From Fusobacterium mortiferum (GTDB taxonomy: Bacteria; Fusobacteriota; Fusobacteriia; Fusobacteriales; Fusobacteriaceae): a stretch of 32,592 bases of DNA. Position numbers and translations under genes: made by a program. Location of the stretch: the NCBI RefSeq assembly GCF_016900045.1, contig NZ_JACSNP010000021.1:1-32592 (forward strand), given 5' to 3'. How positions within the stretch are numbered: the stretch's first letter is position 1; each line of letters opens with the position of its first letter. The notes below the pieces were generated by a model that was not told where the DNA came from, did no database searches, and worked only from the letters and a program-made list of their open reading frames with translations. Shown one piece after another: positions 8,296 to 25,870 of this stretch.

Positions 8296-9225
8296 GTGAA
8301 AAAGATAATTGCAGGAATAGTAGCTATATTTATACTATTCATAGGATTTATGTATGTAAAAAGCTCTGAACATCAGGGAGAAGAGGTAGAAAAAGTAACA
8401 ATCGAGCACTCTTTAGGAAGTGTAGAAGTTCCTAAAAATCCAAAGAGAATAGTTGTATTTGATTATGGAATATTAGATATCTTAGATACTTTACAAGCAA
8501 AGGTAATAGGTTTACCAAGAGATATGGTACCAGCTCACCTGTCTAAGTATAGTGATGAAAAGTATAAAAATTTAGGAAGTTTAAAAGAGCCAAATATCGA
8601 AAAAATATATGAAGCTAAGCCAGATTTAATAATTATTGCTGGAAGACAGAGAGATTTTTACTCTTCATTATCAAAAATAGCCCCAACAATTTTTGTAGAG
8701 ACATCATCTACTGATTATATGAATGGATTAAAAACTAATGTAGATATGTTAACAAAGATATTTGATAATTCTGAAGTATTAAAAGAAAAATATTCAGAAC
8801 TAGAGAAGAGAATGAATGAGATAAAAAATAAAGTTGAAGCTAAAAACTATAATGCAATGGTACTATTATCTAACAATGGAAGAATAGCTGCCTATGGGGA
8901 AAAATCAAGATTCTCTGTATTTTATGATTACTTAGGATTTAAAACAACTGGAGAGATAGTATCTAGTACTCATGGAAATAAAGTAACATTTGAGTATCTT
9001 TTAGAAAAAAATCCTGATTATATCTACATAATTGATAAGGCTGCTGTTGTTGGAGATAATTTATTAGCTAATAAGGCTTTTGATAATCCAATAGTAAAAT
9101 CTACTAAAGCTGCTCAAAATGGGAATATCATATTCCTAGATTCAGTAGTTTGGTATACAGCTAGTGGAGGACTAAAATCTACAGAGATAATGTTAAATGA
9201 AGTAGAAAAGTCTATCAATAAATAG
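8296..9225 (+). CDS. Siderophore-binding periplasmic protein, membrane-anchored (CeuE/YclQ-like)
   Basis: A 309-residue type III (FepB/BtuF-class) binding protein. The first lobe begins at VEVPKNPKRIVVFDYGILD and has LIIIAGRQRDFYSSLSKIAP; the second lobe includes TFEYLLEKNPDYIYIIDKAA. The N-terminus is one hydrophobic helix (residues 3-20) without a lipobox Cys, so it is either an uncleaved anchor or an ordinary signal peptide, not a lipoprotein. The start is GTG after AAGGAGG (8285-8291). It hands the iron complex from the receptor to the permeases and is the last gene of the operon. Confidence 0.85.
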   Translation: MKKIIAGIVAIFILFIGFMYVKSSEHQGEEVEKVTIEHSLGSVEVPKNPKRIVVFDYGILDILDTLQAKVIGLPRDMVPAHLSKYSDEKYKNLGSLKEPNIEKIYEAKPDLIIIAGRQRDFYSSLSKIAPTIFVETSSTDYMNGLKTNVDMLTKIFDNSEVLKEKYSELEKRMNEIKNKVEAKNYNAMVLLSNNGRIAAYGEKSRFSVFYDYLGFKTTGEIVSSTHGNKVTFEYLLEKNPDYIYIIDKAAVVGDNLLANKAFDNPIVKSTKAAQNGNIIFLDSVVWYTASGGLKSTEIMLNEVEKSINK

Positions 9226-9245
9226 AGTAAATTGAATAGTGAATA

Positions 9246-9283
9246 AAAAATCAAGAGTGGTAGAGATACTGTTCTTGATTTTT
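9246..9283 (+). terminator. Terminator of the iron-uptake operon
   Basis: AAAAATCAAGA (9246-9256) pairs with TCTTGATTTTT (9273-9283) around a 16-base loop and runs into a T-rich tail. It is 20 bp past the stop codon of the binding protein. Confidence 0.75.
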
Positions 9284-9329
9284 GTTGTAAATTGACATTT
9301 TATTAAAAAAGTAAAAGGAGAGGATATGT

Positions 9330-9743
9330 ATGTGGTTTTTTTATGCAATTTTGTCAGCTATATTTGCTGCTTTAACTTCAATATTAGCTAAGATGGGAAT
9401 GGGAGGTATTAGTTCAAATCTTGCAACAGCAATAAGGACAAGTGTGGTAGTGTTCATGGCTTGGGGAATGGTATTTATAACTAAGAGTGGAAATCAGATA
9501 GGGAATATTCCTGGAAGGGAGTGGCTTTTTTTAATTCTTTCAGGATTGGCAACAGGAGCTTCTTGGTTATGTTACTATAAAGCTTTACAGATAGGAGAGG
9601 TTTCTAAAGTTGTTCCAGTAGATAAATTCAGTATTGTTTTAACTCTTATTTTTGCTTTTCTTTTCTTAAAAGAGGTAGCTACTTTAAAAGTTGTTATTGG
9701 AGCTATTTTTATTACGATAGGAACTTTTATAATGATTTTGTAG
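9330..9743 (+). CDS. Small EamA/DMT-family transporter (single domain)
   Basis: This 137-residue membrane protein has about five helices and one EamA unit: ILSAIFAALTSILAKMGM at the N-terminus, then ASWLCYYKALQIGEVSKVVP and LIFAFLFLKEVATLKVVIGA. Canonical family members carry two such units (about 290 residues), so this one should act as a dimer. The ATG at 9330 has AAGGAG 9 bp upstream. An ATG at 9326 is out of frame. It stands alone between a terminator and a gene-poor stretch. The substrate is unknown. Confidence 0.8.
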   Translation: MWFFYAILSAIFAALTSILAKMGMGGISSNLATAIRTSVVVFMAWGMVFITKSGNQIGNIPGREWLFLILSGLATGASWLCYYKALQIGEVSKVVPVDKFSIVLTLIFAFLFLKEVATLKVVIGAIFITIGTFIMIL

Positions 9744-10034
9744 AAAATAGATATGTTGTTAAATAAAAGTGAATAAAAATTGAGAATATAGTGATAAAAA
9801 AGTTATAAAAATGTTGAAATTGAATGAAAATAGATTGTAATTTTGATGAGAATTTGGTAATATATTATAAATATGTAAAGTATATTTTAAAAGATAGGAA
9901 AACTTTATTTATAAGATGAGAATTAGAGCAGGTAAATGATAATGAAAAAATTAAGAGTATTAAGTATATTAATTTAAAAATATATTAAAAACAATTAATA
10001 TTTAATACCAATAATAGAGGAGATATTCTAAAAT
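9744..10034. other. AT-rich spacer with a possible promoter and a vestigial signal-peptide-like mini-ORF
   Basis: TTGATG (9843-9848) and TATAAA (9866-9871) with a 17-bp spacer form a fair plus-strand promoter, probably for the coiled-coil gene at 10035. Inside the leader, ATG at 9942 opens eleven codons (MKKLRVLSILI) ending at 9977. It reads like the start of a signal peptide cut short, possibly a decayed gene. Nothing else is seen. Confidence 0.4.
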
Positions 10035-10370
10035 ATGGCAATACTGGATATATTTTATAAAAATAAAAAACTAATACAGGAGCTAGAGGAATTAAAGTGT
10101 AAGTATAAAAATCTAGAAAGTAAACTTGAAGAAAAAGATAAAGAGTTAGAAACTTTAGTCTTGGAAAAAGAAGTATTAATGAGTAAAAATTTAAAAAAAG
10201 ATAATGAGATACTTAGTTTAAAGAAAAAAATAGGTTTATTTACTGTTAATTATAATACTGATAAATTTAAATATAAAAAATTGGAAGAAAAAATTTTAAT
10301 ATTAGAAAAAGAATATAGAAGAGTATCCGAGGAAAATAAAAAATTAAAAGAAAATTTTTTAGTTAAATAA
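10035..10370 (+). CDS. Small coiled-coil protein, unknown function
   Basis: A 111-residue Lys/Glu/Leu-rich protein predicted to be almost wholly coiled coil (heptad-like ELEELKCKYKNLESKLEEK and KLEEKILILEKEYRRVSEEN), with a short break near GLFTVNYNTD. No signal peptide. The GAGGAG ribosome site is about 12 bp before the ATG, slightly far. It precedes the defence-like helicase by 114 bp and might be a structural or adaptor partner, but nothing in it shows that. Confidence 0.6.
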   Translation: MAILDIFYKNKKLIQELEELKCKYKNLESKLEEKDKELETLVLEKEVLMSKNLKKDNEILSLKKKIGLFTVNYNTDKFKYKKLEEKILILEKEYRRVSEENKKLKENFLVK

Positions 10371-10414
10371 GTAAAATAATTAAGTAAAGTATAAAATATA
10401 AAATTATCAAGTAT

Positions 10415-10423
10415 TGCTATAAA
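10415..10423 (+). promoter_or_regulatory. Extended -10 promoter of the helicase-methyltransferase pair
   Basis: TGCTATAAA is a TG-n-TATAAA extended -10 element and no recognisable -35 accompanies it. Transcription would start near 10430, ahead of an AAGGTG ribosome site at 10441-10446. Confidence 0.45.
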
Positions 10424-10484
10424 ATAAAAAATTGTATTACAAGGTGAAATAAAAAATGGGTTAGTAACAAATAATAAAATAAAC

Positions 10485-12803
10485 ATGTATGAGGTTTTAA
10501 AAAAATCAATAAATGAATCTGATGAAATAATAATGAATGTTTCTTTTATAAGAGATTCTGGGATAAAACTCTTAATTGATGAATTGAAAGAAGCAAAGGA
10601 AAAAGGAAAGAAAATAAAAATTCTTACAAGTGACTATATGAGAGTTACGGAGCCAAATGCACTATATAGATTACTAGAGGTTGGAGGAGTAAAAATTTTT
10701 AATAATCCTTCAAATAAATCTTTCCATTCTAAAACCTATATATTTAAAAGAGAAAATCAGTTTGAGATATATATAGGTTCATCAAATATATCTTATTCAG
10801 CTCTTATAACAGGAGTAGAGTGGAATTACAATTTTATAAAAGAAAAAGATGCTGAAGTTGCCGAAATATTAGAAGAGTTTGGAGAACTCTATGAAAAAAA
10901 TAGTTTTGAATTAACTTTGGAATGGGTAAGAGAGTATGAAAAAAGATATAGAAAAAATGAATATGGTGAACTATTTGATAAAGATGAAAAATTAGAAAAT
11001 AGAGAAATAGAGCCAATAAAATTTCAAATACCAGCTCTTTATGAGCTTTCAAAAACTAGAGAAGAGGGCTACAAAAAAGCTTTAGTTATTGTAGGAACTG
11101 GACTGGGAAAAACATATTTATCCGTTTTTGATTCAAAGGCTTTTAATAAAATTCTTTTTATTGCTCATAGAGATGAGATATTGAGAGAAGCTAGAAAATC
11201 TTTTCAATCATTTTATGGAAATAAGAAAACTTATGGCTTTTTTAATGGTACGAAAAAAGAGAATAATAAGGATATTGTTTTTGCTAGTATTTCAACACTT
11301 TCAAAGGATGAGTACTTGAATGAAACTTGGTTTTCTAAAAAAAGTTTTGATTACATTGTAGTGGATGAATTTCATCATAGTAGCTCAAAAAGTTATTTAA
11401 AAGTTTTAAATTATTTTGAGCCAGAGTTTTTGTTGGGGCTGACTGCTACTCCAGATAGAAATGATAATGGGGATATATATAAACTTTGTGACTATAATAT
11501 AGCTTATGAATGTGATTTTAGAGTTGGAATAAATAATGGTTGGTTAGTTCCTTTTGAATATTTTGGAATATATGATGATACAGATTACTCTTTAATTCCT
11601 TGGAGAAGTGGAAAATATGATTTGTTAGCTTTGGAAAATGCCCTTGTAGTTGAAAAAAGAGTTGAGAATATTTTTAAAAAATATATGGAGTATAGAAAGA
11701 ATTTTACAGTTGGATTCTGTGCAAGTATTAACCATTGTAAAGTTATGAATGAGTATTTTAGGAAAAAAGGGATAAAAAGTGAAATAATAATAGGAGATAC
11801 TCCAATAGTTAAAAGACAAGAGATAATAGAGAGATTTCAGCAAAAGAAAATAGAGGTTATTTTTACAGTTGATATATTCAATGAAGGAGTGGATATTCCT
11901 TGTATAGATACTTTACTATTTTTACGTCCAACCCTTTCTTATACAATCTTTATTCAACAATTAGGAAGAGGACTTAGAACCTTTGATGGAAAAGATAAAT
12001 TAAGAGTGCTTGATTTTGTTGGAAACTATAAAGGTGCAGAGCTAAGACCAGCTTTTCTTACAGGAGAGTACAAAAGAGAAAAAAGTTCAATAAATGTAAT
12101 AGATAAAAATTATTTATTGCCAGAGGGATGTAGTACAGAGTTTGATTTTAAATTAATTGAATATTTTGAAAAGCTGAAAAGAAAGAATATAAAACAGGAA
12201 GAGCTTGTAAAATTGGACTACCAAAAATTAATGGAAGTTTTAGAGAAAGTTCCTACAATTATGGAAACTTATACCTTTGGAGAGATACCAGTACATATGT
12301 ATATAAAGACCTTTAAGAGTTGGTATAATTTTCAAAAAGAAATTGGTGTTCTGAATGAGCAACAAAAAAATTATTCTCAAAAAGCTATTGAATTTTTAAG
12401 CTTTTTAGAGAGTACTTCTATGACTAAATCCTATAAGATGCCTTTATTTTTAGCCTTATTTGATACTTTGAATAGAGAACAATCTATTGAAAAGATAGGA
12501 GAATATTTTAAAAAATTCTATCAAAACAAAAGATATGCTAAAGATTTAAATAATAAAAAACATATGGAATGGGAAAATTGGAGTAATAAAAAATTTGAAA
12601 AATTAGCAGAAGAGAATCCAATAAAGCATCTTACTGAAAAAGGTAAAAATATGGAATATTTTACTTATGAGGATAGAATATTTTCTCTAAATAAGGAACT
12701 TTATGAAGAGATATTGAGAAATAAAGAGCTTTTAAAAGAAATAAGGGAAAGAATAGAGTATAGGGTAATAAATTATTTCAGTAGAAAATATATGGAGGGA
12801 TAA
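10485..12803 (+). CDS. PLD-nuclease/superfamily 2 helicase fusion (defence-type)
   Basis: A 772-residue protein. Residues 1-130 form a phospholipase-D-like domain with one HxK motif (H81-S-K83) and GSSN at 98-101. Then comes an SF2 helicase: Walker A GTGLGKT (204-210), DEFHH box (294-298), LTATP (319-323), and in the second RecA domain GVDIPCIDTLLFLRP and QQLGRGLRT. A 250-residue C-terminal extension has no recognised motif. Such PLD-helicases are frequent in defence islands as restriction factors. The ATG at 10485 has no ribosome site, whereas an AAGGTG stands 39 bp upstream, so the true N-terminus may differ. The methyltransferase gene overlaps its stop codon (TAATG). Confidence 0.85.
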   Translation: MYEVLKKSINESDEIIMNVSFIRDSGIKLLIDELKEAKEKGKKIKILTSDYMRVTEPNALYRLLEVGGVKIFNNPSNKSFHSKTYIFKRENQFEIYIGSSNISYSALITGVEWNYNFIKEKDAEVAEILEEFGELYEKNSFELTLEWVREYEKRYRKNEYGELFDKDEKLENREIEPIKFQIPALYELSKTREEGYKKALVIVGTGLGKTYLSVFDSKAFNKILFIAHRDEILREARKSFQSFYGNKKTYGFFNGTKKENNKDIVFASISTLSKDEYLNETWFSKKSFDYIVVDEFHHSSSKSYLKVLNYFEPEFLLGLTATPDRNDNGDIYKLCDYNIAYECDFRVGINNGWLVPFEYFGIYDDTDYSLIPWRSGKYDLLALENALVVEKRVENIFKKYMEYRKNFTVGFCASINHCKVMNEYFRKKGIKSEIIIGDTPIVKRQEIIERFQQKKIEVIFTVDIFNEGVDIPCIDTLLFLRPTLSYTIFIQQLGRGLRTFDGKDKLRVLDFVGNYKGAELRPAFLTGEYKREKSSINVIDKNYLLPEGCSTEFDFKLIEYFEKLKRKNIKQEELVKLDYQKLMEVLEKVPTIMETYTFGEIPVHMYIKTFKSWYNFQKEIGVLNEQQKNYSQKAIEFLSFLESTSMTKSYKMPLFLALFDTLNREQSIEKIGEYFKKFYQNKRYAKDLNNKKHMEWENWSNKKFEKLAEENPIKHLTEKGKNMEYFTYEDRIFSLNKELYEEILRNKELLKEIRERIEYRVINYFSRKYMEG

Positions 12804-13381
12804 TGTCAGTAAATTTTTATAATGAAAATGCTGAGAACTTTTTTTCTCAAACTGTACGAGCTGATATGGGATTACTATATGAGAAGTTTTTATCTAAACT
12901 TCCAACTACTAAAGGTAAAATTTTGGATTTAGGTTGTGGAAGTGGAAGAGATAGTAAGCACTTTAAAGAGTTAGGATTTGAAGTTGTAGCCCTAGATTTA
13001 TCAGAAGAGTTAGCAAAAAAAGCTAGTGAATATATAGGACAAAAGGTTAATGTCCAAGATATGAGAGATTTAGAATTTGAAGATGAATTTATTGGAGTGT
13101 GGGCTTGTGCTTCAATATTACATTTACCAGTTGAGGATATAGAGATAGTGTTTAAAAAGGTATTTAAAAGTTTAAAAAAAGATGGTATTTTTTATCTATC
13201 TTTTAAATATGGGGAGAATGATTATATAAAAGATGGAAGAGAATTTACTTGCTTTACTCCAGAAAAATTTCTTCAATACTTTCCTCAATATAAAGAGAAT
13301 ATAATAGAAATCTTTGAAACTTCTGATGTTAGAGAAGGTAGGGAAGGGGAGAAGTGGTTTAATATTATAATGAGGGGTTAA
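12803..13381 (+). CDS. Class I SAM-dependent methyltransferase
   Basis: The 192-residue Rossmann methyltransferase has motif I ILDLGCGSG (residues 40-48), an acidic motif II (VVALDLS) and ASILHLPVEDIEIVFKKVFK typical of the small TehB/UbiE-like class. No DNA-methylase NPPY/DPPY motif is visible, so a small-molecule or tRNA substrate is as likely as DNA. It is translationally coupled to the PLD-helicase (TAATG, GGAGGG ribosome site). The stop codon lies at the edge of the inverted repeat that bounds the flipped segment, and overlaps the end of the minus-strand fragment by 4 bp. Confidence 0.85.
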   Translation: MSVNFYNENAENFFSQTVRADMGLLYEKFLSKLPTTKGKILDLGCGSGRDSKHFKELGFEVVALDLSEELAKKASEYIGQKVNVQDMRDLEFEDEFIGVWACASILHLPVEDIEIVFKKVFKSLKKDGIFYLSFKYGENDYIKDGREFTCFTPEKFLQYFPQYKENIIEIFETSDVREGREGEKWFNIIMRG

Positions 13382-13731
13382 AATTCGTATTTGTTTGAAA
13401 AGGTGAACTCTTTTAACGAAAAAATAAGCTTTTCAGGAGAATACTTTTTATAATGCCTAGATGTTATTGTAATAACTTCTCCATCTATAAAATATCTATT
13501 ATTAGATGCCCAAACACTTTTTTCTAAAAAGGCAAGTGGCTTATCTAAAAGTAATTCAATAAGTAATCTTTCTTCTGGAAAAATAGGACGTAAGTCAGAA
13601 GCTAAATAATCTATATTTTTCCCACAACAGGGACAGGTTAATTCCTCTCCCTGTTTTTTTATTATTGGTATTTTACAAGTATTACACCAATATATTAAAT
13701 CTTCATCATTAGTAACTATTTTATTTTCCAT
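13378..13731 (-). pseudogene. Detached N-terminal zinc-ribbon part of the PAPS-reductase-family protein
   Basis: This encodes 117 residues. A zinc ribbon (C16, C19, C33, C36: YWCNTCK and TCPCCGK) is followed by RPIFPEERLLIELLLDKPL and VWASNNRYFIDGE. In full-length relatives of the DndC-like PAPS reductase these elements form the N-terminus, directly before the stretch leading to the PP-loop. Here the ORF ends with FSNKYEF and a stop, while the plus-strand gene at 14007 begins with LSNKCEFFEKYIEKF. The two fit together in frame across a 19-bp inverted repeat. The ribosome site (AAGGA) lies in the end of the 70-residue ORF, 3 bp upstream. It is best seen as an exiled gene start, not an independent gene. 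Confidence 0.8.
13380..13398 (+). repeat. Left arm of the 19-bp inverted repeat (inversion breakpoint)
   Basis: AAAATTCGTATTTGTTTGA is the inverted copy of the right arm at 14028-14046, with 17 of 19 positions identical. It overlaps the stop codons of both the methyltransferase and the detached N-terminal fragment. Confidence 0.8.
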
Positions 13732-13734
13732 ATT

Positions 13735-13947
13735 TTACATTCCTTTTTCAGCTTGAGTAATTTTGTAGTTATCTATTTCTTCAATTTCATATTTTAAATA
13801 ATAGTTATTTCCATTTTTAACAATTCTTATTTTTTCTACATCAATCTCAATTTTATTTTTTATTAATTCCATTTTATTTTCAATGGCTTCTAAATAAGTT
13901 AAATTCTTCATTTTAAAAAGATTTTCTTTAGCTGTTTCTAAATTCAT
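13735..13947 (-). CDS. Small 70-residue protein inside the inverted segment
   Basis: A Lys/Glu-rich soluble protein (MNLETAKENLFKMKNLTYLE start), with a predicted helical N-terminus and beta-rich C-terminus (IRIVKNGNNYYLKYEIEEID). A strong GGAGGT ribosome site precedes the ATG. It is 3 bp upstream of the zinc-ribbon fragment and the two share direction, so they form one translation unit. In the flipped orientation it would be the first gene of the phosphorothioation-like operon. I do not recognise the family. Confidence 0.65.
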   Translation of the reverse strand: MNLETAKENLFKMKNLTYLEAIENKMELIKNKIEIDVEKIRIVKNGNNYYLKYEIEEIDNYKITQAEKGM

Positions 13948-14006
13948 AATTAAATACCTCCATTTATTTAAATAAGAAAATTTTTTATTTTATAAAAAAT
14001 TTACTT

Positions 14007-15353
14007 ATGCAAATAAAATTCTTTTTATCAAACAAGTGCGAATTTTTTGAAAAATATATTGAAAAGTTTATAAAAGCTAACAGAGGAAGACTGAATTATC
14101 TCTATGATGAAGCTTGTGAATTCATAAAGGAAACAAGTAAAGATTATCCCTTAGAAAATATCATCTTATCCTTTTCTGGAGGTAAAGATTCAACTGTATC
14201 AGCAGATTTAACAGTGAGAGCTCTAAGTGAACCAAGTCTTGTACATATTTTTGGAGATACTACTTTAGAATTTCCTATAACTATGGAGTATGTAAAAAGA
14301 TTTAGGGAGAATAATAGAAAGGCAATATTTAAAATAGCTAAAAATAAAGAACAAAATTTCTATAGGGTATGTGAAGATATTGGTCCACCTGCAAGAATGC
14401 TGAGATGGTGTTGTTCAATGTTTAAAACAGGACCAATAACAAGAGTTTTAAATAATCTATATAAAGATAAACAGGTTCTTACTTTTTATGGAATAAGAAA
14501 ATGTGAGTCTGTAAGTAGAAGTAAATATAATAGAGTTGAAAATAGTGCAGATGCTATAAAGATTAATAAGCAAACAGTAGCTTCTCCAATTTTTTATTGG
14601 AAAGATATAGATATTTGGCTTTATATCTTAGGGGAAAAAATTGATTTTAATGATGCTTATAGACTAGGTTATGACAGAGTTGGATGTTGGTGTTGTCCAA
14701 ATAATAATGAAAGGGCACAGTTTTTATCTAGTATATATATGCCAGAGGAGAGTAAAAAATGGAAAGAGTTTTTGATAGAGTTTGCTAAAAAAATAGGAAA
14801 ACCTGACCCAGAGGTATATGTAACTAGTGGGAAATGGAAAGCTAGACAAGGTGGAAATGGTTTGAAAGCCTCAGAGGATATCAAAATAAAATTTGCAAAC
14901 TGTACAGCTGAGGAGCATGCTAAGATTTATCAATTAAATAAGCCAATAGATGAGTGGTTTTATGAACTGTTTTTACCTTTTGGTAGATATGCCCCAGAAT
15001 TAGGAAGAAAATTAGTAAAAGAGAGAGTAATTGTGGATATAAAGACAAATATTCCAATAATATCAATACAGCCATTTGTACAAGAGGGATATGAGTATTC
15101 TGTCAAAGTGAAGACTATGAATATAGAAAAACATGAGGATATTCAAAGAATGATAGCTTATCAAATAAAAAAATATAATGCTTGTAGAAAATGCTTAAAA
15201 TGTGAATCATTATGTAAGTTTGGGGCTATTTCAATAAAATATGATGAATATCATATAAATGATAATAAATGTAAGAGATGTAAGATGTGTGTAACTCCAA
15301 AATACTTAGTTGGAGGATGCTTAATGGATAGATATTTGAAGACAAAAAATTAA
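14007..15353 (+). CDS. PAPS-reductase-family (DndC/BrxP-like) sulfurtransferase, N-terminus displaced
   Basis: The 448-residue body of an ATP-pyrophosphatase/PAPS-reductase protein: PP-loop SGGKDS (57-62), HIFGDTTLEFP, RWCC (133-136), CWCC (227-230), and a C-terminal bacterial-ferredoxin-like domain with C393-C396-C399-C403 and C422-C425-C428-C438 for Fe-S clusters. DndC of DNA phosphorothioation and BrxP of BREX type 4 belong to this family. The ATG at 14007 has no ribosome site. Relatives have about 110 more N-terminal residues with a zinc ribbon, which lie here on the opposite strand. Restoring the inversion gives a 552-residue protein (117 + 435). As read, the protein is probably not made, or is made poorly. 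Confidence 0.85.
   Translation: MQIKFFLSNKCEFFEKYIEKFIKANRGRLNYLYDEACEFIKETSKDYPLENIILSFSGGKDSTVSADLTVRALSEPSLVHIFGDTTLEFPITMEYVKRFRENNRKAIFKIAKNKEQNFYRVCEDIGPPARMLRWCCSMFKTGPITRVLNNLYKDKQVLTFYGIRKCESVSRSKYNRVENSADAIKINKQTVASPIFYWKDIDIWLYILGEKIDFNDAYRLGYDRVGCWCCPNNNERAQFLSSIYMPEESKKWKEFLIEFAKKIGKPDPEVYVTSGKWKARQGGNGLKASEDIKIKFANCTAEEHAKIYQLNKPIDEWFYELFLPFGRYAPELGRKLVKERVIVDIKTNIPIISIQPFVQEGYEYSVKVKTMNIEKHEDIQRMIAYQIKKYNACRKCLKCESLCKFGAISIKYDEYHINDNKCKRCKMCVTPKYLVGGCLMDRYLKTKN
14028..14046 (+). repeat. Right arm of the 19-bp inverted repeat (inversion breakpoint)
   Basis: TCAAACAAGTGCGAATTTT lies within codons 8-14 of the 14007 ORF. It matches the left arm in inverted orientation except for two positions flanking the centre (A/G at positions 9 and 11). 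Weaker similarity continues about nine bases into the segment. Confidence 0.8.
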
Positions 15354-15371
15354 AATAATTTGGAGAAGATG

Positions 15372-16259
15372 ATGAGTAAAATGAAGTTTAGAGGGCATGA
15401 GACCTTTTTTATTAGAAAAGGCTGGCTTAATAAAGGAATGAGAAATATATTAAAAGACCCTTATATTTTTATGGGAAGAAGTGGGAATCCTACTGATGTT
15501 TTAGGAATAGGAACTAATATGGTAAAGTCCTTGAGATATTGGTTACAAGTAGTAGGTCTTACTAATGAAAGAATGGTTGGAAAAAAATTACAAGAGTTGA
15601 CAGAAGTAGGAAAAATAATATATGAAAATGATCCGTATACAGAAGAGTTAGGAACCTTAGCAATACTGCATTATTATCTAGTTACAAATAAAGAAAATGC
15701 TACTTCTTGGTATTTTTTCTTCAATATTTTTAAAAATACAGAGTTTACTAAAGAAGATTTTATTACTCAACTAAAAAATTATATAAAATTAAATGGAGAA
15801 GAAACTTCTGAAAGAGTTTTAGATGATGATACTTCCTGTATTTTAAATACGTATATTCCAAGAGTAAAGCTATCTTCAACAAGAGTAAGTCCAGAGAGTA
15901 ATATAGATTGCCCATTAGGAGAGTTAAACCTATTAAATGTAATGAATAAAAAGGACAAAATTTATAAAAAAACTTCAATAGATGTGGAAAAATTAAATCC
16001 TCTAATAGCTTTAGCAATTATTTTAAAAGAAAATCCAGAGAGAAAAGAGATAAAAATTTCCTCTATACTCTCTGAAGAAAGAGGATTAGGAAAACTATTT
16101 AACTTGGATATGATAAACTTGATTCAAGTGTTATATAAATTAGAGAGAGCTGGGTATATAAAGGTTATAAGGACAGCTGGATTAGATGTAATTAGATTGG
16201 AAAAAGATATAGATTATATTACAGCTATAAAAGAGTATTATAATCTATTGAATAATTAG
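15372..16259 (+). CDS. DUF4007 family protein
   Basis: About 295 residues beginning MSKMKFRGHETFFIRKGWLN, the characteristic DUF4007 opening (F-x-GHETF, then a GWL motif). The ATG at 15372 is preferred, with GGAG 6 bp upstream; upstream in-frame TTG and ATG codons fit less well. DUF4007 genes are known beside PAPS-reductase genes in defence-type operons, but their biochemical role is not established. The C-terminal half (LYKLERAGYIKVIRTAGLDV) looks like a winged helix, which suggests DNA or protein binding. It sits 18 bp after the reductase and directly before the large ATPase. Confidence 0.8.
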   Translation: MSKMKFRGHETFFIRKGWLNKGMRNILKDPYIFMGRSGNPTDVLGIGTNMVKSLRYWLQVVGLTNERMVGKKLQELTEVGKIIYENDPYTEELGTLAILHYYLVTNKENATSWYFFFNIFKNTEFTKEDFITQLKNYIKLNGEETSERVLDDDTSCILNTYIPRVKLSSTRVSPESNIDCPLGELNLLNVMNKKDKIYKKTSIDVEKLNPLIALAIILKENPERKEIKISSILSEERGLGKLFNLDMINLIQVLYKLERAGYIKVIRTAGLDVIRLEKDIDYITAIKEYYNLLNN

Positions 16260-16272
16260 AGTGGAGAGAAAA

Positions 16273-19200
16273 ATGGAAGAGAAAAAGATAAAGACAGTGA
16301 AAGATTTTCAGACCTCAATTAATATAGCTTTTGATTTATATGATGATAGGAAGATAAAAAATTTTATTCCAACTTATTCAGCTATAAAATTGATAGAAGA
16401 GATTTTATTGAGTACGAATATAGATTCAACTCAAAGAGCTAAAATGCTGGTAGGGGCTTATGGTAGAGGAAAATCTCATATAGTTTTAGTGGCACTTTCA
16501 CTGTTATTCAAGAAAGATAAAAAAATATTTGAAAAGATTTTATTAAAAATAAAAGAGTACAATGTACATATGTTTGACTTTATAAATAACTATCTTGAAA
16601 GTGAGAAGAAGATACTTCCTATTATTATTTCAGGAAATAGTTCAACCTTGAGTCAATCATTTCTTTTAGGGTTACAGCAAACTTTAAAAGGTGAGGAATT
16701 AGAGGATTTTATGCCTGATACAAGTTATATTTCAGCAATCAAGGTAATAAAAAATTGGGAAGAAAAGTATCCAGAAACCTATGAAATATTAAAATCTAGA
16801 CTCAATATATCTATTCAAGAGTTTATATTAAAATTACAAGAATACGATGTTCAAAGTTATAGATTTTTTGAAAAAATATATCCAGAATTAACTTCAGGTA
16901 GTTCATTTAATCCTTTTGCTAATGGGGATATAGTAGAGTTGTATGAAGAAGTAGCTAAAAAATTGAGATTGAAAGGTTATTCTGGGATATATGTAGTTTA
17001 TGATGAATTTAGCAAGTATTTAGAGGGCAGTATTGAAAATACAGAAATAAACGAGATAAAACTTCTTCAAGACTTTGCTGAAAAATGTAACAGAAGTGGC
17101 AGCTTACAGATGCATCTTCTTTTAATTAGTCATAAGGATTTATCAAACTATCTTTCTAAGAATTTAAGTAAAGAGAAGATAGATGCTTGGAGAGGAGTAT
17201 CAGGAAGATTTTTAGAAATAGATATACAGGATAATTATGAACAGATGTACGAGATAATTATTCAAGTAATAAAAAAGAATAGAGAATATTGGCAAAATTT
17301 TCAAGATAAGTATGAAAAGAATTTTGAGATTTTAGAAAATAGTATATTAGGAAGAGAAGAATTAGCTAATACAGAAATAAAAAATTTAATAAGGGGTTGC
17401 TATCCATTACATCCTTTGTCAGTTTTTATATTACTTAGATTATCAGAAAGAGTAGCTCAAAATGAAAGGACACTATTTACATTTTTATCTGCAAATCAAA
17501 GATATACATTAAATGATTATTTAGAAAAAAATGATGAAGATCAATTTAAAACATTAACTCCAGACTATATATTTGATTATTTTGATTCTTTATTAAAAAA
17601 GGAAAATTACAATAGTAATATATATAAAAATTATAAACTTTTAAAAACAGTTCTTTTAAAGGTAGAAGAAAATTCTCTAGAGAGTAAAATTTTGAAAACA
17701 ATAGCTTTAATATACTTTATAGAACAGTTTGAAAAATTAGCTCCAACTCAAGATACAATTATGGAAATATTTCAAGGAGAATATACTCCTGAAGAAATAA
17801 TGGAAACTTTAAAAAATTTGCAAGAAAAAGAGTGTATAGTCTATTTAAAATTGAGTAATAATTATCTAAAAATAAAAGAGAGTAGTGGAGTAGATATTGA
17901 AAGTGAAATAATAAAATATAGAGAAAAGTATCTTTCAAAAGTTCAACCTATTGAGTTACTCAATAATTTATCTTTTGATAACTATCTTTATCCTACTAGA
18001 TATAATGATGAAAATGAAATAGTTAGATATTTTGATTTTATTTTCATAAGAAGTTCAGACATATATAGTAATAGATATTTAAATATGAAAGATAAAAATA
18101 GTGATGGAGTGATATTTGGAGTAATTCCAGCTTCACAAGAGGATATAGAAAATTTAAATAAAGCTCTTAATGAATTAGAACAAAATAAGCAGATGGTATT
18201 TATTGTACCAAAAAGGTATAAAAATATAAGTATACAATTGTACAGATACAAGTGTGTAGAAGAGTTGAAAAAATTAGCTGAAGAGGATTTAGTTTTAAAA
18301 GAGGAGTATGAACTTATTTTAAATGATTTACAAGAGGTTATCCTTAATTATATAGATTCTTTTATTAGACCAGAAATGGGAAAAGCAAATTACTTCTATT
18401 TAGGAGAGAAGAAAAAGATAAATAGAAAAGCACATCTTTCAAATCTTCTATCTAAAATTTGTGAAGGGATATTCTATAATACACCAATAATAAATAATGA
18501 GACTATAAATAAAAATTCTTTATCTAAGCAGACAATAAATAGTAGAGATAAAATCATATCTAAATTATTAGAAAATAATTTAGAAGAGAACCTTGGCTTG
18601 AAGGGGACAGGGCAAGATGTTAGTATAATGAGAGCTTTACTTCTAAATAATGGAATTTTAGTAAAAAATCTCTATAATTATTTGGAAATAAATTTAAATA
18701 TTAATGACGGAAAATTGAGAAATGTATTAGAAATTATAGATAATTTCTTATCTCAAGAGGCATTATCTCAATGGAAAAATTTTGATATTCTATATGAAAA
18801 ATTAACATCTCCAAAATGGGCTATAGGGTTAAAAAGAGGAGTAATCCCGATATATTTAGCCTTAATGATACATAAATATAAGAAATTTTTAATCATAAAA
18901 AGTGAGATAGGAGAAGAGAAAATAGATGTTGATATTTTAAATAAAATAAATGAAAATCCTAAAGCTTACTCTGTATATATGGAGAGATGGAATGATAATA
19001 AGGGAGAGTATTTAGAAAAGCTAGCTGAGATATTTGAAGATAACAATTTAAAAGAAAAAAATGAATTAAATTATTTTAAATATCAAGTGATGAGTATGAA
19101 ACATTGGTATCTCTCTTTACCTAAATACACTAAAGATATAGTTAGTGAGTACTTAGGAAATGGAAAGTATAAAGATATAGATAATGATAAAAGAGAATTT

Positions 19201-19875
19201 TTAAGTAGTTTAAAAAGAGAAATAGAAAATCCTAGAGAATATATTTTTGAAGATATATTTAAAATATTTGTATATAAGAGTTTAGATTTGAGCATTTTAA
19301 ATAAATTACAAGAGTGTAAAAATTTCTATGAAAATCTATTAGATAATTTGAAATTGAAGCTAATTGAAGATATTAGATCTATCTTCAATGGAAATAGAGA
19401 TATATCTTTAATATCTTTACTTAAAGATTGGGAAGAAGGATTAAAAGCTAAAACAAGAGAACATATTTTTAATAAAAATGAAAATAGAGTACTAGAACTA
19501 ATCAGAGAAGTTGGACATAATGAGAAAAACTTTGTTGAGAGATTAGCTAGAATGGTAAGCTCTTTAAGAATTGAAGATTGGAGCAATAATAGTATTGAGA
19601 GATTTTTGGAGGAACTAAAAGAACTAAAAATAACTATTGAAGAATTTGATAAAAATCTAGCAACAGAAGATGAAAATAGTAATAACTCCTATAAAATATT
19701 CTTTGTAAGTGAAGAGGGAAGAGAGCAGATAAAAAGTTTTGAAAAAGTTGAGTGTAGTAGAAGAGCCTCTCTTTTATACAATGATTTATTGAGTTCTATA
19801 GATGAAATGGGAGAATCTATTACTCAACAGGAAATAAGGCAGATACTTATGGATATATTAAAAAAATATTGTTAG
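16273..19875 (+). CDS. Large BrxC/PglY-like P-loop ATPase
   Basis: A 1200-residue cytoplasmic protein with Walker A GAYGRGKSH (61-69) and Walker B IYVVYDEFSKY (about 239-249), followed by long helical regions. Size, the GKSH form of the P-loop and the N-terminal position of the ATPase resemble BrxC/PglY of BREX systems and related phosphorothioation-associated ATPases. The ATG at 16273 is preferred over the GTG at 16261, because that codon sits beside the GGAGAG ribosome site. It starts 13 bp after the DUF4007 gene. It probably works as an AAA-type motor or switch on DNA. The exact subfamily cannot be fixed by eye. Confidence 0.75.
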   Translation: MEEKKIKTVKDFQTSINIAFDLYDDRKIKNFIPTYSAIKLIEEILLSTNIDSTQRAKMLVGAYGRGKSHIVLVALSLLFKKDKKIFEKILLKIKEYNVHMFDFINNYLESEKKILPIIISGNSSTLSQSFLLGLQQTLKGEELEDFMPDTSYISAIKVIKNWEEKYPETYEILKSRLNISIQEFILKLQEYDVQSYRFFEKIYPELTSGSSFNPFANGDIVELYEEVAKKLRLKGYSGIYVVYDEFSKYLEGSIENTEINEIKLLQDFAEKCNRSGSLQMHLLLISHKDLSNYLSKNLSKEKIDAWRGVSGRFLEIDIQDNYEQMYEIIIQVIKKNREYWQNFQDKYEKNFEILENSILGREELANTEIKNLIRGCYPLHPLSVFILLRLSERVAQNERTLFTFLSANQRYTLNDYLEKNDEDQFKTLTPDYIFDYFDSLLKKENYNSNIYKNYKLLKTVLLKVEENSLESKILKTIALIYFIEQFEKLAPTQDTIMEIFQGEYTPEEIMETLKNLQEKECIVYLKLSNNYLKIKESSGVDIESEIIKYREKYLSKVQPIELLNNLSFDNYLYPTRYNDENEIVRYFDFIFIRSSDIYSNRYLNMKDKNSDGVIFGVIPASQEDIENLNKALNELEQNKQMVFIVPKRYKNISIQLYRYKCVEELKKLAEEDLVLKEEYELILNDLQEVILNYIDSFIRPEMGKANYFYLGEKKKINRKAHLSNLLSKICEGIFYNTPIINNETINKNSLSKQTINSRDKIISKLLENNLEENLGLKGTGQDVSIMRALLLNNGILVKNLYNYLEINLNINDGKLRNVLEIIDNFLSQEALSQWKNFDILYEKLTSPKWAIGLKRGVIPIYLALMIHKYKKFLIIKSEIGEEKIDVDILNKINENPKAYSVYMERWNDNKGEYLEKLAEIFEDNNLKEKNELNYFKYQVMSMKHWYLSLPKYTKDIVSEYLGNGKYKDIDNDKREFLSSLKREIENPREYIFEDIFKIFVYKSLDLSILNKLQECKNFYENLLDNLKLKLIEDIRSIFNGNRDISLISLLKDWEEGLKAKTREHIFNKNENRVLELIREVGHNEKNFVERLARMVSSLRIEDWSNNSIERFLEELKELKITIEEFDKNLATEDENSNNSYKIFFVSEEGREQIKSFEKVECSRRASLLYNDLLSSIDEMGESITQQEIRQILMDILKKYC

Positions 19876-19884
19876 GGAGAATTT

Positions 19885-21039
19885 ATGAAGATAGCATATT
19901 TTGATAATTCGGCTACTACATTTCCAAAACCTGAAATAGTATACGATTTTATGGATAAATTCTATAGGGAAAATGGGGTAAATGTAGGAAGAGGCCAACA
20001 TAAATTAGCTTCGAAAGCTAGTTTTTTAGTAGATGAAACAAGAAAATTACTTCAAGAGATATTATGTTGTGAAAATAAAGAGATAATATTTACAGCTACA
20101 GCTACTGAAGGAATAAATCTTTTATTAAATGGAATAGAATGGAGAGATGGAATGAATGTATATATCTCTCCTTTTGAACATAACTCTGTGACAAGAACAT
20201 TACAACATTTACAAAAAAAATATCAATTAAATATAAAAAATTTGAACTTTTCAAAAGAGAAACTAGAGTATGAACTTAATGAGATAGAGAATAATTTTAA
20301 AAGAGAGAAACCAGGTCTATTAATAGTAAGTCATTGTAGTAATGTTTTTGGAGTTTTAGCTCCAATAGAGGAACTAACTCATATGAGTAAAAAATATGGA
20401 GCTTTAAATATAATAGATATGTGTCAAACTGCTGGGTTAATAGATATAAATGTTGGAAATGATAATATAGATGCTGTTGTATTTGCAGGACATAAAACAT
20501 TATATGGACCTTTTGGAGTATCTGGGGTAGCAATAAAAAAAGGTATGAACTTATCTCCATTTATATATGGTGGAACAGGAATAGACTCAGCTAATCAAGA
20601 TATGCCAGAAAGCTCTCCAGCTAAATATGAGGCTGGAAGTCACAATATTTTATCAATCTCTGGTTTGAATGCAGCTTTAAAATGGATAAAAGAGATAGGA
20701 GTAGAAAGAATACATCAAAGTGAGAAGAAGATATTTTCTAAATTAATTGAAATTCTAAGAAAATATAAGAATATAGAGATAATAGGATATAAGGAAACAG
20801 CTAAACAAGTTGGAGTTGTATCTTGTAAATTTGAGGGTTATTCTTCTGATGAAATAGGACAGGTTTTAAGTGATATGGATATAGCTGTAAGAACAGGATT
20901 ACACTGTTCTCCTATGGCACATAAATTTTTTGGAACATTTCCAGCTGGAACTGTTAGATTTAGTATAGGATATTTTACTAGTCAAAAAGATTTAGAAAAG
21001 TTAGAAGAAGCTTTAAGATATATAGAGGAGAATTCTTAA
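19885..21039 (+). CDS. Cysteine desulfurase (DndA/IscS-type role)
   Basis: This 384-residue PLP enzyme has the PLP lysine in FAGHKTLYGPFG (K204), the cofactor-binding IIDMCQ (D178, Q181), PFEHNSV (H99), and the catalytic cysteine in RTGLHCSPMAHKF (C341). It converts cysteine to alanine and passes a persulfide sulfur on. In Dnd systems the desulfurase loads sulfur for DndC, and the location inside this operon makes the same job likely here. A GGGAGA ribosome site precedes the ATG, 9 bp after the ATPase stop. Confidence 0.9.
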   Translation: MKIAYFDNSATTFPKPEIVYDFMDKFYRENGVNVGRGQHKLASKASFLVDETRKLLQEILCCENKEIIFTATATEGINLLLNGIEWRDGMNVYISPFEHNSVTRTLQHLQKKYQLNIKNLNFSKEKLEYELNEIENNFKREKPGLLIVSHCSNVFGVLAPIEELTHMSKKYGALNIIDMCQTAGLIDINVGNDNIDAVVFAGHKTLYGPFGVSGVAIKKGMNLSPFIYGGTGIDSANQDMPESSPAKYEAGSHNILSISGLNAALKWIKEIGVERIHQSEKKIFSKLIEILRKYKNIEIIGYKETAKQVGVVSCKFEGYSSDEIGQVLSDMDIAVRTGLHCSPMAHKFFGTFPAGTVRFSIGYFTSQKDLEKLEEALRYIEENS

Positions 21040-21050
21040 GGGTGAGAAAA

Positions 21051-23225
21051 ATGAGTTTAAAGGATTTGGACATAGAAGAGGAATATCGTTCAAGTTATGA
21101 TGATATCATTGATAAATTTTATATTCCACTTTTAAAGGAAAGTATAAGTTATAAAAGAGCTGTTGGTTTTTTTTCTTCATCAGCTTTAAGTGAAATAGCA
21201 AGAGGGATAAGTATATTTGCAAAAAATGGAGGTAAAATAAAACTCATAGCTTCTCCAAAACTTTCAGAGAAAGATATAACAGATATTGAATTAGGATATA
21301 GATTGAGAGATGAAGTTATAAAAGAAAATATTCTTTTTCAATTAGGAACTCCTAAAGATGAAATAGAAGAAAAAAAATTAAGTTTATTAGCTAAATTAAT
21401 AGCTAATAATATTTTAGATATAAAAATAGCTTTTATGGAAAATAATTCTAATGTGGGAATGTATCATGAAAAAATGGGAATTTTTGAGGATATAGAAGGA
21501 AATATGATTGCTTTTTCAGGATCTATGAATGAAAGCTTTACAGCAATGAAGGCTAACTATGAAACAATAGATGTATTTTTTTCTTGGGAAGGGCAGAGAG
21601 CATTAAAGAAAAATAAAGCTTTTGATACAATTTGGAGAAATGAAGAGAAAACAATTAAAATATTAAAATTTCCAGAACTAAAAAAGGAATTTTTAAAGAG
21701 GTACTATATAACTCAAAATAATAGAGATGAAGATCAAAATTTTGAAGTAGAAGAAGTAAAGGTTAAAGAAGTTTTTCCCAAAATACCAAAAGAAATACAA
21801 TTATATGATTATCAATTAGAGGCTATAAAAAAATGGAAAACTAATGGGTATAGAGGAATTTTTGATATGGCAACAGGAGCTGGAAAGACTTTAACTGGAT
21901 TAGGGGCTCTATGTGAACTTGCAAAAGATTTAAATAATAAACTTTTTGTAATAATTGTTTGTCCATATCAACATTTAGTAGAACAATGGGTAGAAGATAT
22001 AGAAAAATTTAATATAAAGCCAATTATTGGATATAGTTCCTCTCCTCAAAAAGATTGGAAAGATAGATTGAGTAGAGGAATTAGAGGACAGAATTTAGGA
22101 TTAAAATTAAAAGATTTTATTTGTTTTATTTGTACTAATGCTACCTTTGCTTCAAATTATGTACAAGATATGATAGATACTGTAAATAGTAAGAAGTTAT
22201 TAATTGTAGATGAAGCACATAATTTTGGTTCAACTAGATTAATGAAAACTTTACATGATGGGTATGAATATAGATTAGCTTTGTCAGCAACTTTAGATAG
22301 GTTTAATGATAAAATTGGAACAGATAGGCTTTATGATTTTTTTGGAGAAAAAGCTATTGAATATAGTTTAGAAAGAGCTATAAAAGAAAAAAAATTAACT
22401 CCATATAAATATTATCCAGTATTAGTATATCTTAGTGAAGAGGAATTACAAGAATATACAAATTTAACTTATGAAATTTGTAGGAATATAATAGTTGATA
22501 ATAATGGAAGGAAAAAGCTTACTGAGTATGGAGAGATACTTACTATTCAAAGAGCTAGAATAATAGCTGGTGCTAGAAATAAATTAGGAAAGTTAAAAGA
22601 TAAGATATTACCATATAAAAATGATAATTTTATTTTGGTATACTGTGGAGCAACTAATATATTAGCTGATAATAAAGATGAATCAAATATTAATGAAAAA
22701 GATTTAAGACAAATTACAGCTGTAACTTCTCTATTAGGAAATGATCTGGATATGAGAGTAGCTAAATTTACTTCCGAAGAGTGTATAGAGGAAAGAAAAA
22801 ACATAAAGGAAGATTTTGAAAAAAAAGAGTTGCAATGTCTTGTGGCAATAAAATGTTTAGATGAAGGAGTCAATATTCCTAATATAAAAACAGCTTTTAT
22901 ATTAGCTAGTACTACTAATCCTAAAGAGTATATTCAAAGAAGAGGAAGAGTTTTAAGAAAATCTAAAAATATGGAAAAAGAATTTGCTGAAATTTATGAT
23001 TTTGTAACTTTGCCTAGACCATTGGAAACAGTACAATATTTAACTTTAAAACAATTGAAATTAGAGATTCCTTTAGTAAAGAAAGAGATTTTAAGGATGG
23101 AAGAGTTTTGTCATTTAGCAATGAATCCATCTACTACTAGAAAAATTATATATGAAATAAAGGATTCCTATAAAGACAACATTAAGTATTTTGAGGAGGA
23201 AGAGGAATATGGAGAGTGTTATTAA
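21051..23225 (+). CDS. PLD-domain SF2 helicase, phosphorothioation-type restriction candidate
   Basis: 724 residues. The N-terminal PLD-like domain has YHEKMG (H139, K141) and SGSMNES (N160). Then comes an SF2 helicase: Walker A ATGAGKT (274-280), DEAH (387-390), LSATLDR, DEGVNIPNI and QRRGRVLRK. Helicases of this build are annotated as restriction enzymes of DNA phosphorothioation systems. The ATG at 21051, after AAGGGTG, is preferred to the GTG at 21042. It follows the desulfurase by 11 bp. It is the second PLD-helicase in the island, only distantly similar to the one at 10485, so they are not a recent duplication. Confidence 0.87.
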   Translation: MSLKDLDIEEEYRSSYDDIIDKFYIPLLKESISYKRAVGFFSSSALSEIARGISIFAKNGGKIKLIASPKLSEKDITDIELGYRLRDEVIKENILFQLGTPKDEIEEKKLSLLAKLIANNILDIKIAFMENNSNVGMYHEKMGIFEDIEGNMIAFSGSMNESFTAMKANYETIDVFFSWEGQRALKKNKAFDTIWRNEEKTIKILKFPELKKEFLKRYYITQNNRDEDQNFEVEEVKVKEVFPKIPKEIQLYDYQLEAIKKWKTNGYRGIFDMATGAGKTLTGLGALCELAKDLNNKLFVIIVCPYQHLVEQWVEDIEKFNIKPIIGYSSSPQKDWKDRLSRGIRGQNLGLKLKDFICFICTNATFASNYVQDMIDTVNSKKLLIVDEAHNFGSTRLMKTLHDGYEYRLALSATLDRFNDKIGTDRLYDFFGEKAIEYSLERAIKEKKLTPYKYYPVLVYLSEEELQEYTNLTYEICRNIIVDNNGRKKLTEYGEILTIQRARIIAGARNKLGKLKDKILPYKNDNFILVYCGATNILADNKDESNINEKDLRQITAVTSLLGNDLDMRVAKFTSEECIEERKNIKEDFEKKELQCLVAIKCLDEGVNIPNIKTAFILASTTNPKEYIQRRGRVLRKSKNMEKEFAEIYDFVTLPRPLETVQYLTLKQLKLEIPLVKKEILRMEEFCHLAMNPSTTRKIIYEIKDSYKDNIKYFEEEEEYGECY

Positions 23226-23367
23226 AATAGATGAGAAGATAGTTAAACAAATAGCTAAACAGATAGTTATGATAGAAAAAAATAATTTAAAAACAAAAGA
23301 ATTATCTGATTCACAAATGATAACAGAAATAAAAAAAATAATTGAGGGAGAGGTGGAAGTAGAATAA
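23209..23367 (+). CDS. 52-residue operon protein, unknown function
   Basis: ATG at 23209, 8 bp after an AGGAGGA ribosome site inside the end of the helicase gene (17-bp overlap). The TAA overlaps the ATG of the DndD-like gene (TAATG). The peptide is helical and charged (IDEKIVKQIAKQIVMIEKNN and SQMITEIKKIIEGEVEVE). The tight overlaps at both ends and the strong ribosome site argue that it is a real, translationally coupled gene. It could be a small structural partner of the helicase or of the ATPase. Confidence 0.75.
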   Translation: MESVIKIDEKIVKQIAKQIVMIEKNNLKTKELSDSQMITEIKKIIEGEVEVE

Positions 23368-25334: not shown

Positions 25335-25345
25335 GAAGTGGAAAA

Positions 25346-25870
25346 ATGTTTGATAAAGAGTATATTTTTAGGGGAAGACATGCTGAATTTGTAAAAGACT
25401 TAACTGGAAGATTTGGTCCAGATTCTAAATTTCAAATTTTAAGTAGAAATTTAGATGTATATTTATTAGCACCGATTATAGGATTTTTATATAATAGACA
25501 AGCAGATATTGATACTTCTATAAATTCAGAAGGAAAAAATGAAAATACTAAAATATTTTTAGAGCAAATGCTAAAAATAAAAGATGAAATGATATATAAT
25601 TACAGATTGATTATGTTAAGGGACAAAAAGTATGAAAGTGATTTTGAAAAGAGAATAGAAAAAGCTTTTAAAAATTTAGGGACTCCAGAAGGAGAAAAAG
25701 ACTATGAACATTTTAATAGATATGTTTTAGGTGGTGTTGAAATTTTATATGAAAAGATTATGCTTTCTGCTAGAAATAGTGAAGATTATATTTTAAATTT
25801 AGTAAATTTTATGAAAGAATTTGATGAGAAGAATAATGTTGATATTGACATATTAGAAATATTAGAATAA
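25346..25870 (+). CDS. 174-residue protein at the DndE position, unknown family
   Basis: An acidic, mostly helical soluble protein beginning MFDKEYIFRGRHAEFVKDLT, with a conserved-looking core NLDVYLLAPIIGFLYNRQAD. The ribosome site is GGAAGTGG, 11 bp after the DndD-like gene, and it is the last gene of the operon. In Dnd operons a small protein, DndE, follows DndD, but this one is longer and I see no DndE-like sequence, so equivalence is only positional. The N-terminal charged segment could bind nucleic acid. Confidence 0.7.
   Translation: MFDKEYIFRGRHAEFVKDLTGRFGPDSKFQILSRNLDVYLLAPIIGFLYNRQADIDTSINSEGKNENTKIFLEQMLKIKDEMIYNYRLIMLRDKKYESDFEKRIEKAFKNLGTPEGEKDYEHFNRYVLGGVEILYEKIMLSARNSEDYILNLVNFMKEFDEKNNVDIDILEILE

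Follow-up and report, generated by a model that had tools for sequence, protein, structure and literature searches.

A probable ON/OFF inversion switch in a DNA phosphorothioation defence operon of Fusobacterium mortiferum

Introduction

In invertible promoters of the FimB/FimE or RecV type, a recombinase that is provided in trans acts on two short inverted sites and thereby controls whether an operon is ON or OFF. In the gene-altering inversions and intragenic invertons that have reportedly been described by Milman et al. and Chanin et al., the breakpoint resides within a gene and the encoded protein is changed. Features of both groups come together in the locus that is the subject of this study, which is part of a stretch of 32,592 nucleotides of Fusobacterium mortiferum (NCBI RefSeq assembly GCF_016900045.1, contig NZ_JACSNP010000021.1, positions 1 to 32,592 of the forward strand), referred to as the window. 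In this stretch, the gene of a phosphoadenosine phosphosulfate (PAPS) reductase of the BrxP/SspD type, here termed brxP, is split by an inverted segment at the head of an operon for the sulfur modification of DNA, a form of antiviral defence.

A further relation exists to the invertible hsdS genes of type I restriction-modification systems, where inversion diversifies a modification and restriction system within a population (PMC4948785), as the segment described here would do. With respect to gene content, the locus has four components in common with SspABCD and type-4 BREX systems, as far as these are described in the available parts of two sources (PMC12839542, PMC8092258), namely a cysteine desulfurase, a DUF4007/SspB protein, SspC and a PAPS reductase that contains a ferredoxin-like region. 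The first of these sources lists an extra domain and the ferredoxin region as common to the PAPS reductases of type-4 BREX and of some Ssp systems. The same parts of both sources contain no mention of control by inversion, and no inversion control of a BrxP, SspD or DndC gene was found in the open-access literature, whose coverage is incomplete and does not extend to the key papers on gene-altering inversions. From the analysis presented below, we conclude at a probability of about 0.82 that the segment constitutes an ON/OFF switch of a phosphorothioation defence operon that operates by site-specific inversion.

Results

The original prediction for this DNA placed a 19-bp inverted repeat at both ends of the segment and proposed that its reversal would restore a complete PAPS reductase gene. 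Both arms of the repeat are found at 13380-13398 (minus strand) and 14028-14046 (plus strand) and are identical at 17 of 19 positions, which exceeds the maximum of 15 that any 19-bp inverted match between the end regions reached when the locus was shuffled 100 times with its dinucleotides preserved. A search for further copies in the own genome (G000, 2.04 Mb in 283 contigs) returned none beyond the two arms. When positions 13381-14045 are reversed in silico, the predicted single open reading frame (ORF) of 552 residues is reproduced, in which the zinc-ribbon domain at the N-terminus, a stretch of 117 codons that in the window is detached and located on the minus strand (13378-13731, assigned by homology to the intact protein of G004), is connected to the remainder of the protein. 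The predicted junction holds as an in-frame fusion and is subject to revision in one residue, as its sequence FSNKYEF would read FSNKCEF if the crossover took place within the shared core CAAACAA. The invertible segment (13381-14045), which in the window is found in the OFF orientation, thus holds a leader, an ORF of 70 residues and codons 1-117 of brxP. Its recombination site is better described as a 26-bp element of the form RTTCGC-N14-GCGAAY. The left site, at 13383-13408 on the minus strand, reads GTTCAC-CTTTTCAAACAAAT-ACGAAT on that strand and carries two mismatches to this consensus; the right site, at 14018-14043 on the plus strand, reads ATTCTT-TTTATCAAACAAGT-GCGAAT, carries three mismatches and resides inside the brxP coding frame. 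The spacing of both sites from start to start is 635 bp in G000 and also in G004, despite the unequal length of the small ORF in the two genomes.

Both orientations of the segment are found across related species. In G004, a genome of the same genus, the segment is ON, with the methyltransferase gene on the left flank followed by the site, an ORF resembling that of 70 residues and the N-terminal domain fused to the body of brxP, and the 552 residues of the encoded protein align with the protein of the flipped window over their entire length with zero gaps. In G005 the segment is OFF, as the end of a contig shows the reversed start of the small ORF joined to the brxP body, beyond which the operon continues with the same gene order as in the window. 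A second contig of G005, which covers the methyltransferase side, breaks off exactly where the 20-bp repeat has its inner edge, and the assembly does not contain the segment itself. Because a 20-bp repeat alone would be too short to break an assembly, these contig ends would be most simply explained if the sequenced DNA of G005 contained a mixture of the two orientations. In all three genomes, inverted repeats with 17-20 matching bp are located at the same codons of brxP and their sequences differ. The relatives thus do not adhere to a single orientation, which, together with the genus-wide family of sites described below, supports the reading of the segment as invertible switch. The second genome of the window's species (G100) lacks the island and brxP and hence does not offer the opposite orientation, and in collections of viral, plasmid and phage sequences we found no close relative with this arrangement.

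The body of the BrxP/SspD-like PAPS reductase (14007-15353, plus strand), which encompasses the PP-loop region and a ferredoxin-like C-terminus and is devoid of its N-terminal domain in this orientation, is an ORF of 448 residues that matches BrxP in PADLOC (6e-72) and PF01507 in Pfam (2.6e-31), and the complete protein of G004 obtains its top PADLOC score with BrxP, followed by SspD. Genes of this type are found in 12 of the 61 family genomes searched. The uninterrupted gene of about 550 residues that would be expected from the prediction is present in ten of these genomes, where the frame is complete (549-591 codons) and includes the N-terminal domain; the window genome and G005 are the only carriers in which it is split at this point. 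The same is found for most of 20 loci from other phyla, of which 19 match from about residue 7-13 through the C-terminus (17 as a single open frame and two with a break further in), the last one encoding a distant PAPS reductase. The whole gene with a related N-terminus is thus the norm, and free-standing homologues of 117 residues were not found among the related loci examined. In terms of conservation, the body is 93% identical to both G004 and G005 (dN 0.04 and dS 1.67 compared to G004, where dN and dS are nonsynonymous and synonymous divergence by NG86), and the detached domain is 68% identical to residues 1-117 of G004 in a gapless alignment (dN 0.19, dS 1.14, dN/dS about 0.17, NG86). By this measure, purifying selection still acts on the detached domain. 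Since a domain that has been cut off permanently would not be expected to remain in frame and constrained, this lineage probably made use of it in the ON state not long ago.

The relationship of the sites to other sequences in the genus was investigated with the consensus derived from the aligned arms of G000, G004 and G005, which was used in whole-genome scans that allow up to three mismatches. These scans detect exactly one forward and one reverse match in each of the three genomes, all of them at the ends of the brxP segment, compared to 0-1 matches in control scans with the reversed pattern. Four sister species contain 10-44 matches per genome, and 15 other genomes of the family, including G100, contain 0-2, which are unpaired. 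At 22 sampled loci of the sister species, every site lies outside of ORFs and has an inverted partner at a distance of 142-231 bp. A position weight matrix (PWM) was constructed exclusively from sister-species sites, with the brxP sites left out and a background of 242 kb. With this matrix, the arms in the window rank first (left, 9.8) and second (right, -2.0) among all positions of the 32.6 kb, with a background maximum of 0.6 and with scores of 20.3 and 18.9 for the sites of G004. Judged from motif and rank, the arms of the window are members of a family of invertible-promoter sites that extends across the genus.

In the sister species themselves, genes in proximity of the sites encode a sugar-nucleotide dehydratase and an HU-family protein, both assigned by Pfam, and large secreted-looking proteins without a Pfam match, which from inspection of their N-termini may be autotransporters. 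The layout suggests candidate invertible promoters upstream of surface-type and HU-like genes. Many such candidates, formed by inverted GTTCGC-N14-GCGAAC pairs with spacings that cluster near 142, 152 and 200 bp, are found in G001, G002, G003 and G008 (loci L139-L142 and L147-L164).

A recombinase gene is not contained in the window and the enzyme was thus predicted to act from elsewhere, for which we find a plausible candidate. The genome G000 encodes five tyrosine recombinases and one large serine recombinase (466 residues). One of the former, located on contig C44 outside the window, belongs to a group of short proteins (185 residues in G004), whose gene adjoins that of an HU protein in five of five genomes where the surroundings were read. 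Of the 12 genomes of the genus, 10 encode this short recombinase; the other two (G006 and G007, the latter 71% complete) also have no sites, and every genome with paired sites encodes the protein. G001-G004 and G008, a sister group that contains a run of seven T or no tract, have the gene in frame. In G000, G100, G005, G009 and G010, which together represent four species, a frameshift located at a run of 8-10 T separates approximately the first 16 codons of the gene from the body (G000:C44, about 8840-9393, L090; also L091, L093, L094 and L192). The frameshifted bodies retain the catalytic residues R, K, HxxR, H and Y as read by eye and show a dN/dS near 0.2 (about 0.18 for G000-G010). The tract may vary in length between cells, slippage during expression may restore the frame or the gene may have been lost very recently, and a frameshift in four species is in itself not unlikely if the length of the tract drifts freely. 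In the genome G029, a different tyrosine recombinase gene is found between divergently oriented brxP and helicase/methyltransferase genes (G029:C1, L079, about 9950-11000). This protein was considered as cognate invertase and rejected because G029 has no matching sites, and for the same reason it is more likely an integrase of the island.

The 70-residue ORF (13735-13947, minus strand), the presumed first gene of the transcript in the ON state, is preceded by the predicted GGAGGT ribosome site (13957-13962), and the ATG at 14007 has, as predicted, none. The ORF, which lacks a family assignment, has a counterpart at the same place in G004 (54-56% identical; dN 0.31, dS 1.01, NG86). A homologue is also found in a different context near the gene of a TraF-like signal peptidase (G009:C2, L089:6951-7184), which suggests that both are members of a family of small mobile-element proteins. 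The AT-rich leader (13948-14017, minus strand), the presumed promoter region in the ON state, contains a strong hairpin (13963-14017) formed by an AT-rich inverted repeat of 26 nucleotides with 88% complementarity, and the DNA fold of 13948-14030 beats all of 200 shuffles (z = -3.9). A scan of the segment for terminators did not reveal anything beyond chance. Since none was found between the methyltransferase gene and the segment either, transcription from that gene could read through.

Downstream of brxP, all genes of the operon are located on the plus strand. They encode an SspB/DUF4007 protein (15360-16259; PF13182 7.5e-82, PADLOC SspB 4e-56), an SspC-like ATPase (16261-19875; PADLOC SspC 1e-125), an SspA/DndA-like cysteine desulfurase (19885-21039; PADLOC SspA 3e-45, TIGR01977 above cut-off), a PbeA-like nuclease-helicase (21042-23225; PADLOC PbeA 7e-242, TIGR04095 below its cut-off), a PbeC/DndD-like ATPase (23367-25334; PADLOC PbeC 6e-103) and a protein of 174 residues (25346-25870). 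PADLOC thus matches the roles of SspA, SspB, SspC and SspD in a single operon, with BrxP as the top match of the PAPS reductase, and gives strong matches to PbeA and PbeC of the PbeABCD module. The 174-residue protein has a 77% identical ortholog at the same place in G005 and no match in PADLOC or NCBIfam; a partner of the DndE/PbeD type may be expected at this position. An SspE or SspFGH restriction partner is not found among the operon proteins, where PbeA and PbeC occupy their place, and PglZ and BrxL, which define type-4 BREX, have no match among the genes from 10485 to 25870. Based on these protein matches, we assign the locus as DNA phosphorothioation system that combines an Ssp-type modification module with one of the Pbe type. 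To its left, the switch is flanked by fixed genes of a helicase (772 residues) and a small methyltransferase (192 residues; both within 10485-13381, plus strand), which occupy this side in G004 and G005 as well and are in divergent orientation in G029. This pair also occurs in G009 without the sulfur operon and it may for that reason be an independent defence module.

Discussion

The proposed switch would be defined by two inverted 26-bp sites at a distance of 635 bp that enclose the leader with its presumed promoter, the 70-residue ORF and the first approximately 117 codons of brxP/sspD. A flip joins or severs these codons, such that the coding start residing inside the segment is either connected or disconnected. 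In the ON state, which G004 exemplifies, segment and gene body form an in-frame fusion, the promoter of the segment would transcribe the operon in the order 70-residue ORF, brxP, sspB, sspC, cysteine desulfurase, pbeA and pbeC, and the full PAPS reductase would be made. In the OFF state, as in the window and in G005, brxP would be deprived of its N-terminal domain, ribosome site and leader, and the downstream genes would probably lose their promoter, so that modification and restriction are silenced together. The restriction modules DndFGH and SspFGH, which are linked to phosphorothioation, can act on unmodified DNA (PMC11931770). We favour a loss of transcription of the whole operon, because a shut-off confined to modification could be harmful. 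The invertase would most likely be the short, HU-linked tyrosine recombinase of about 185 residues, which would act in trans and also serve the dozens of invertible promoters in the sister species.

Several observations weigh against this proposal. The arrangement is carried by only three genomes, each from another species, and flipping within a clone is what we infer from their comparison. The promoter scan of the segment found no candidate scoring better than in shuffled sequences. The right site is by itself at background level, as its score remains below the background maximum, and gains its significance from being paired with the left site. Both left half-sites of the window, which read TTCTTT and TTCACC, depart from TTCGCT by drift. 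At a run of eight T, the candidate invertase loses its frame in both examined genomes of the window's species, and in G009 the short recombinase is present and sites are absent. From the worn half-sites and the frameshifted invertase, it appears that the strain of the window may flip rarely. The same features, including the score of the right site, would also be expected if the segment had once been inverted by this site system and were now fixed as a relic that is locked in the OFF state with a disabled invertase. We regard such a relic as possible and somewhat unlikely, since the detached domain is intact, in frame and under apparent purifying selection, the 8-bp core TCAAACAA is identical between the arms, and the reading frame of the recombinase following the frameshift is conserved.

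Less probable is that another enzyme inverts the segment, such as an integrase or Xer-type protein of 290-350 residues or the 466-residue serine recombinase. This possibility derives from the presence of four further tyrosine recombinases and one serine recombinase in G000, where the short protein is out of frame, and it is opposed by the confinement of paired sites to genomes with the short recombinase. The sites of serine invertases differ from palindromic sites with N14 spacing. As the sites described here are of the latter kind, the involvement of a serine invertase was rejected. An extension of the switch, which we consider speculative and rather doubtful, assumes two tiers, where the invertase itself would be gated by its tract of 8-10 T through slippage during replication or transcription. 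Bursts of invertase might then reset the defence in a few cells, and a flip affecting the entire operon might keep modification and restriction coupled, which would spare OFF cells from attacking their own unmodified DNA.

It is highly improbable that the two halves function separately as a zinc-ribbon protein of 117 residues and a PP-loop protein of 448 residues: each has a start codon and an open frame, but the larger ORF is without ribosome site, the remaining genomes examined encode the family as a fused protein, and recombination sites are located at the breakpoints, for which reasons this reading was rejected. Finally, that a draft assembly of 283 contigs merely holds the segment in the wrong orientation is hardly credible and was dismissed, as a repeat with 17 of 19 identical bp is much shorter than sequencing reads and the OFF junction is independently present in G005.

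Phosphorothioate marks typically occupy part of the possible sites in a genome, and the respective systems are unevenly scattered among strains. If the proposed mechanism is correct, a switch that turns the whole system ON or OFF within a clone would be a direct reason for variation in this epigenetic mark and in defence within a population and would also bear on the balance between cost and benefit of keeping the system. The analysis has in addition uncovered candidate invertible promoters in the genus that form a large family with a defined site motif and a candidate invertase.

Ssp and type-4 BREX systems are paired with SspE/SspFGH or PglZ/BrxL, in place of which the operon described here contains pbeA and pbeC. 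Whereas inversion of hsdS swaps specificity, it here would turn a sulfur-modification enzyme on or off. Unlike in gene-altering inversions, the promoter region and the N-terminus move jointly in an all-or-none manner and there is no alternative partner segment. The segment measures 635 bp between its sites, compared to the 142-231 bp found in the invertible promoters of the same genus. In contrast to switches of the FimB/FimE or RecV type, one site is placed within coding sequence, such that the flip also takes along the first 117 codons, and the target is a DNA-modification defence system rather than a surface structure.

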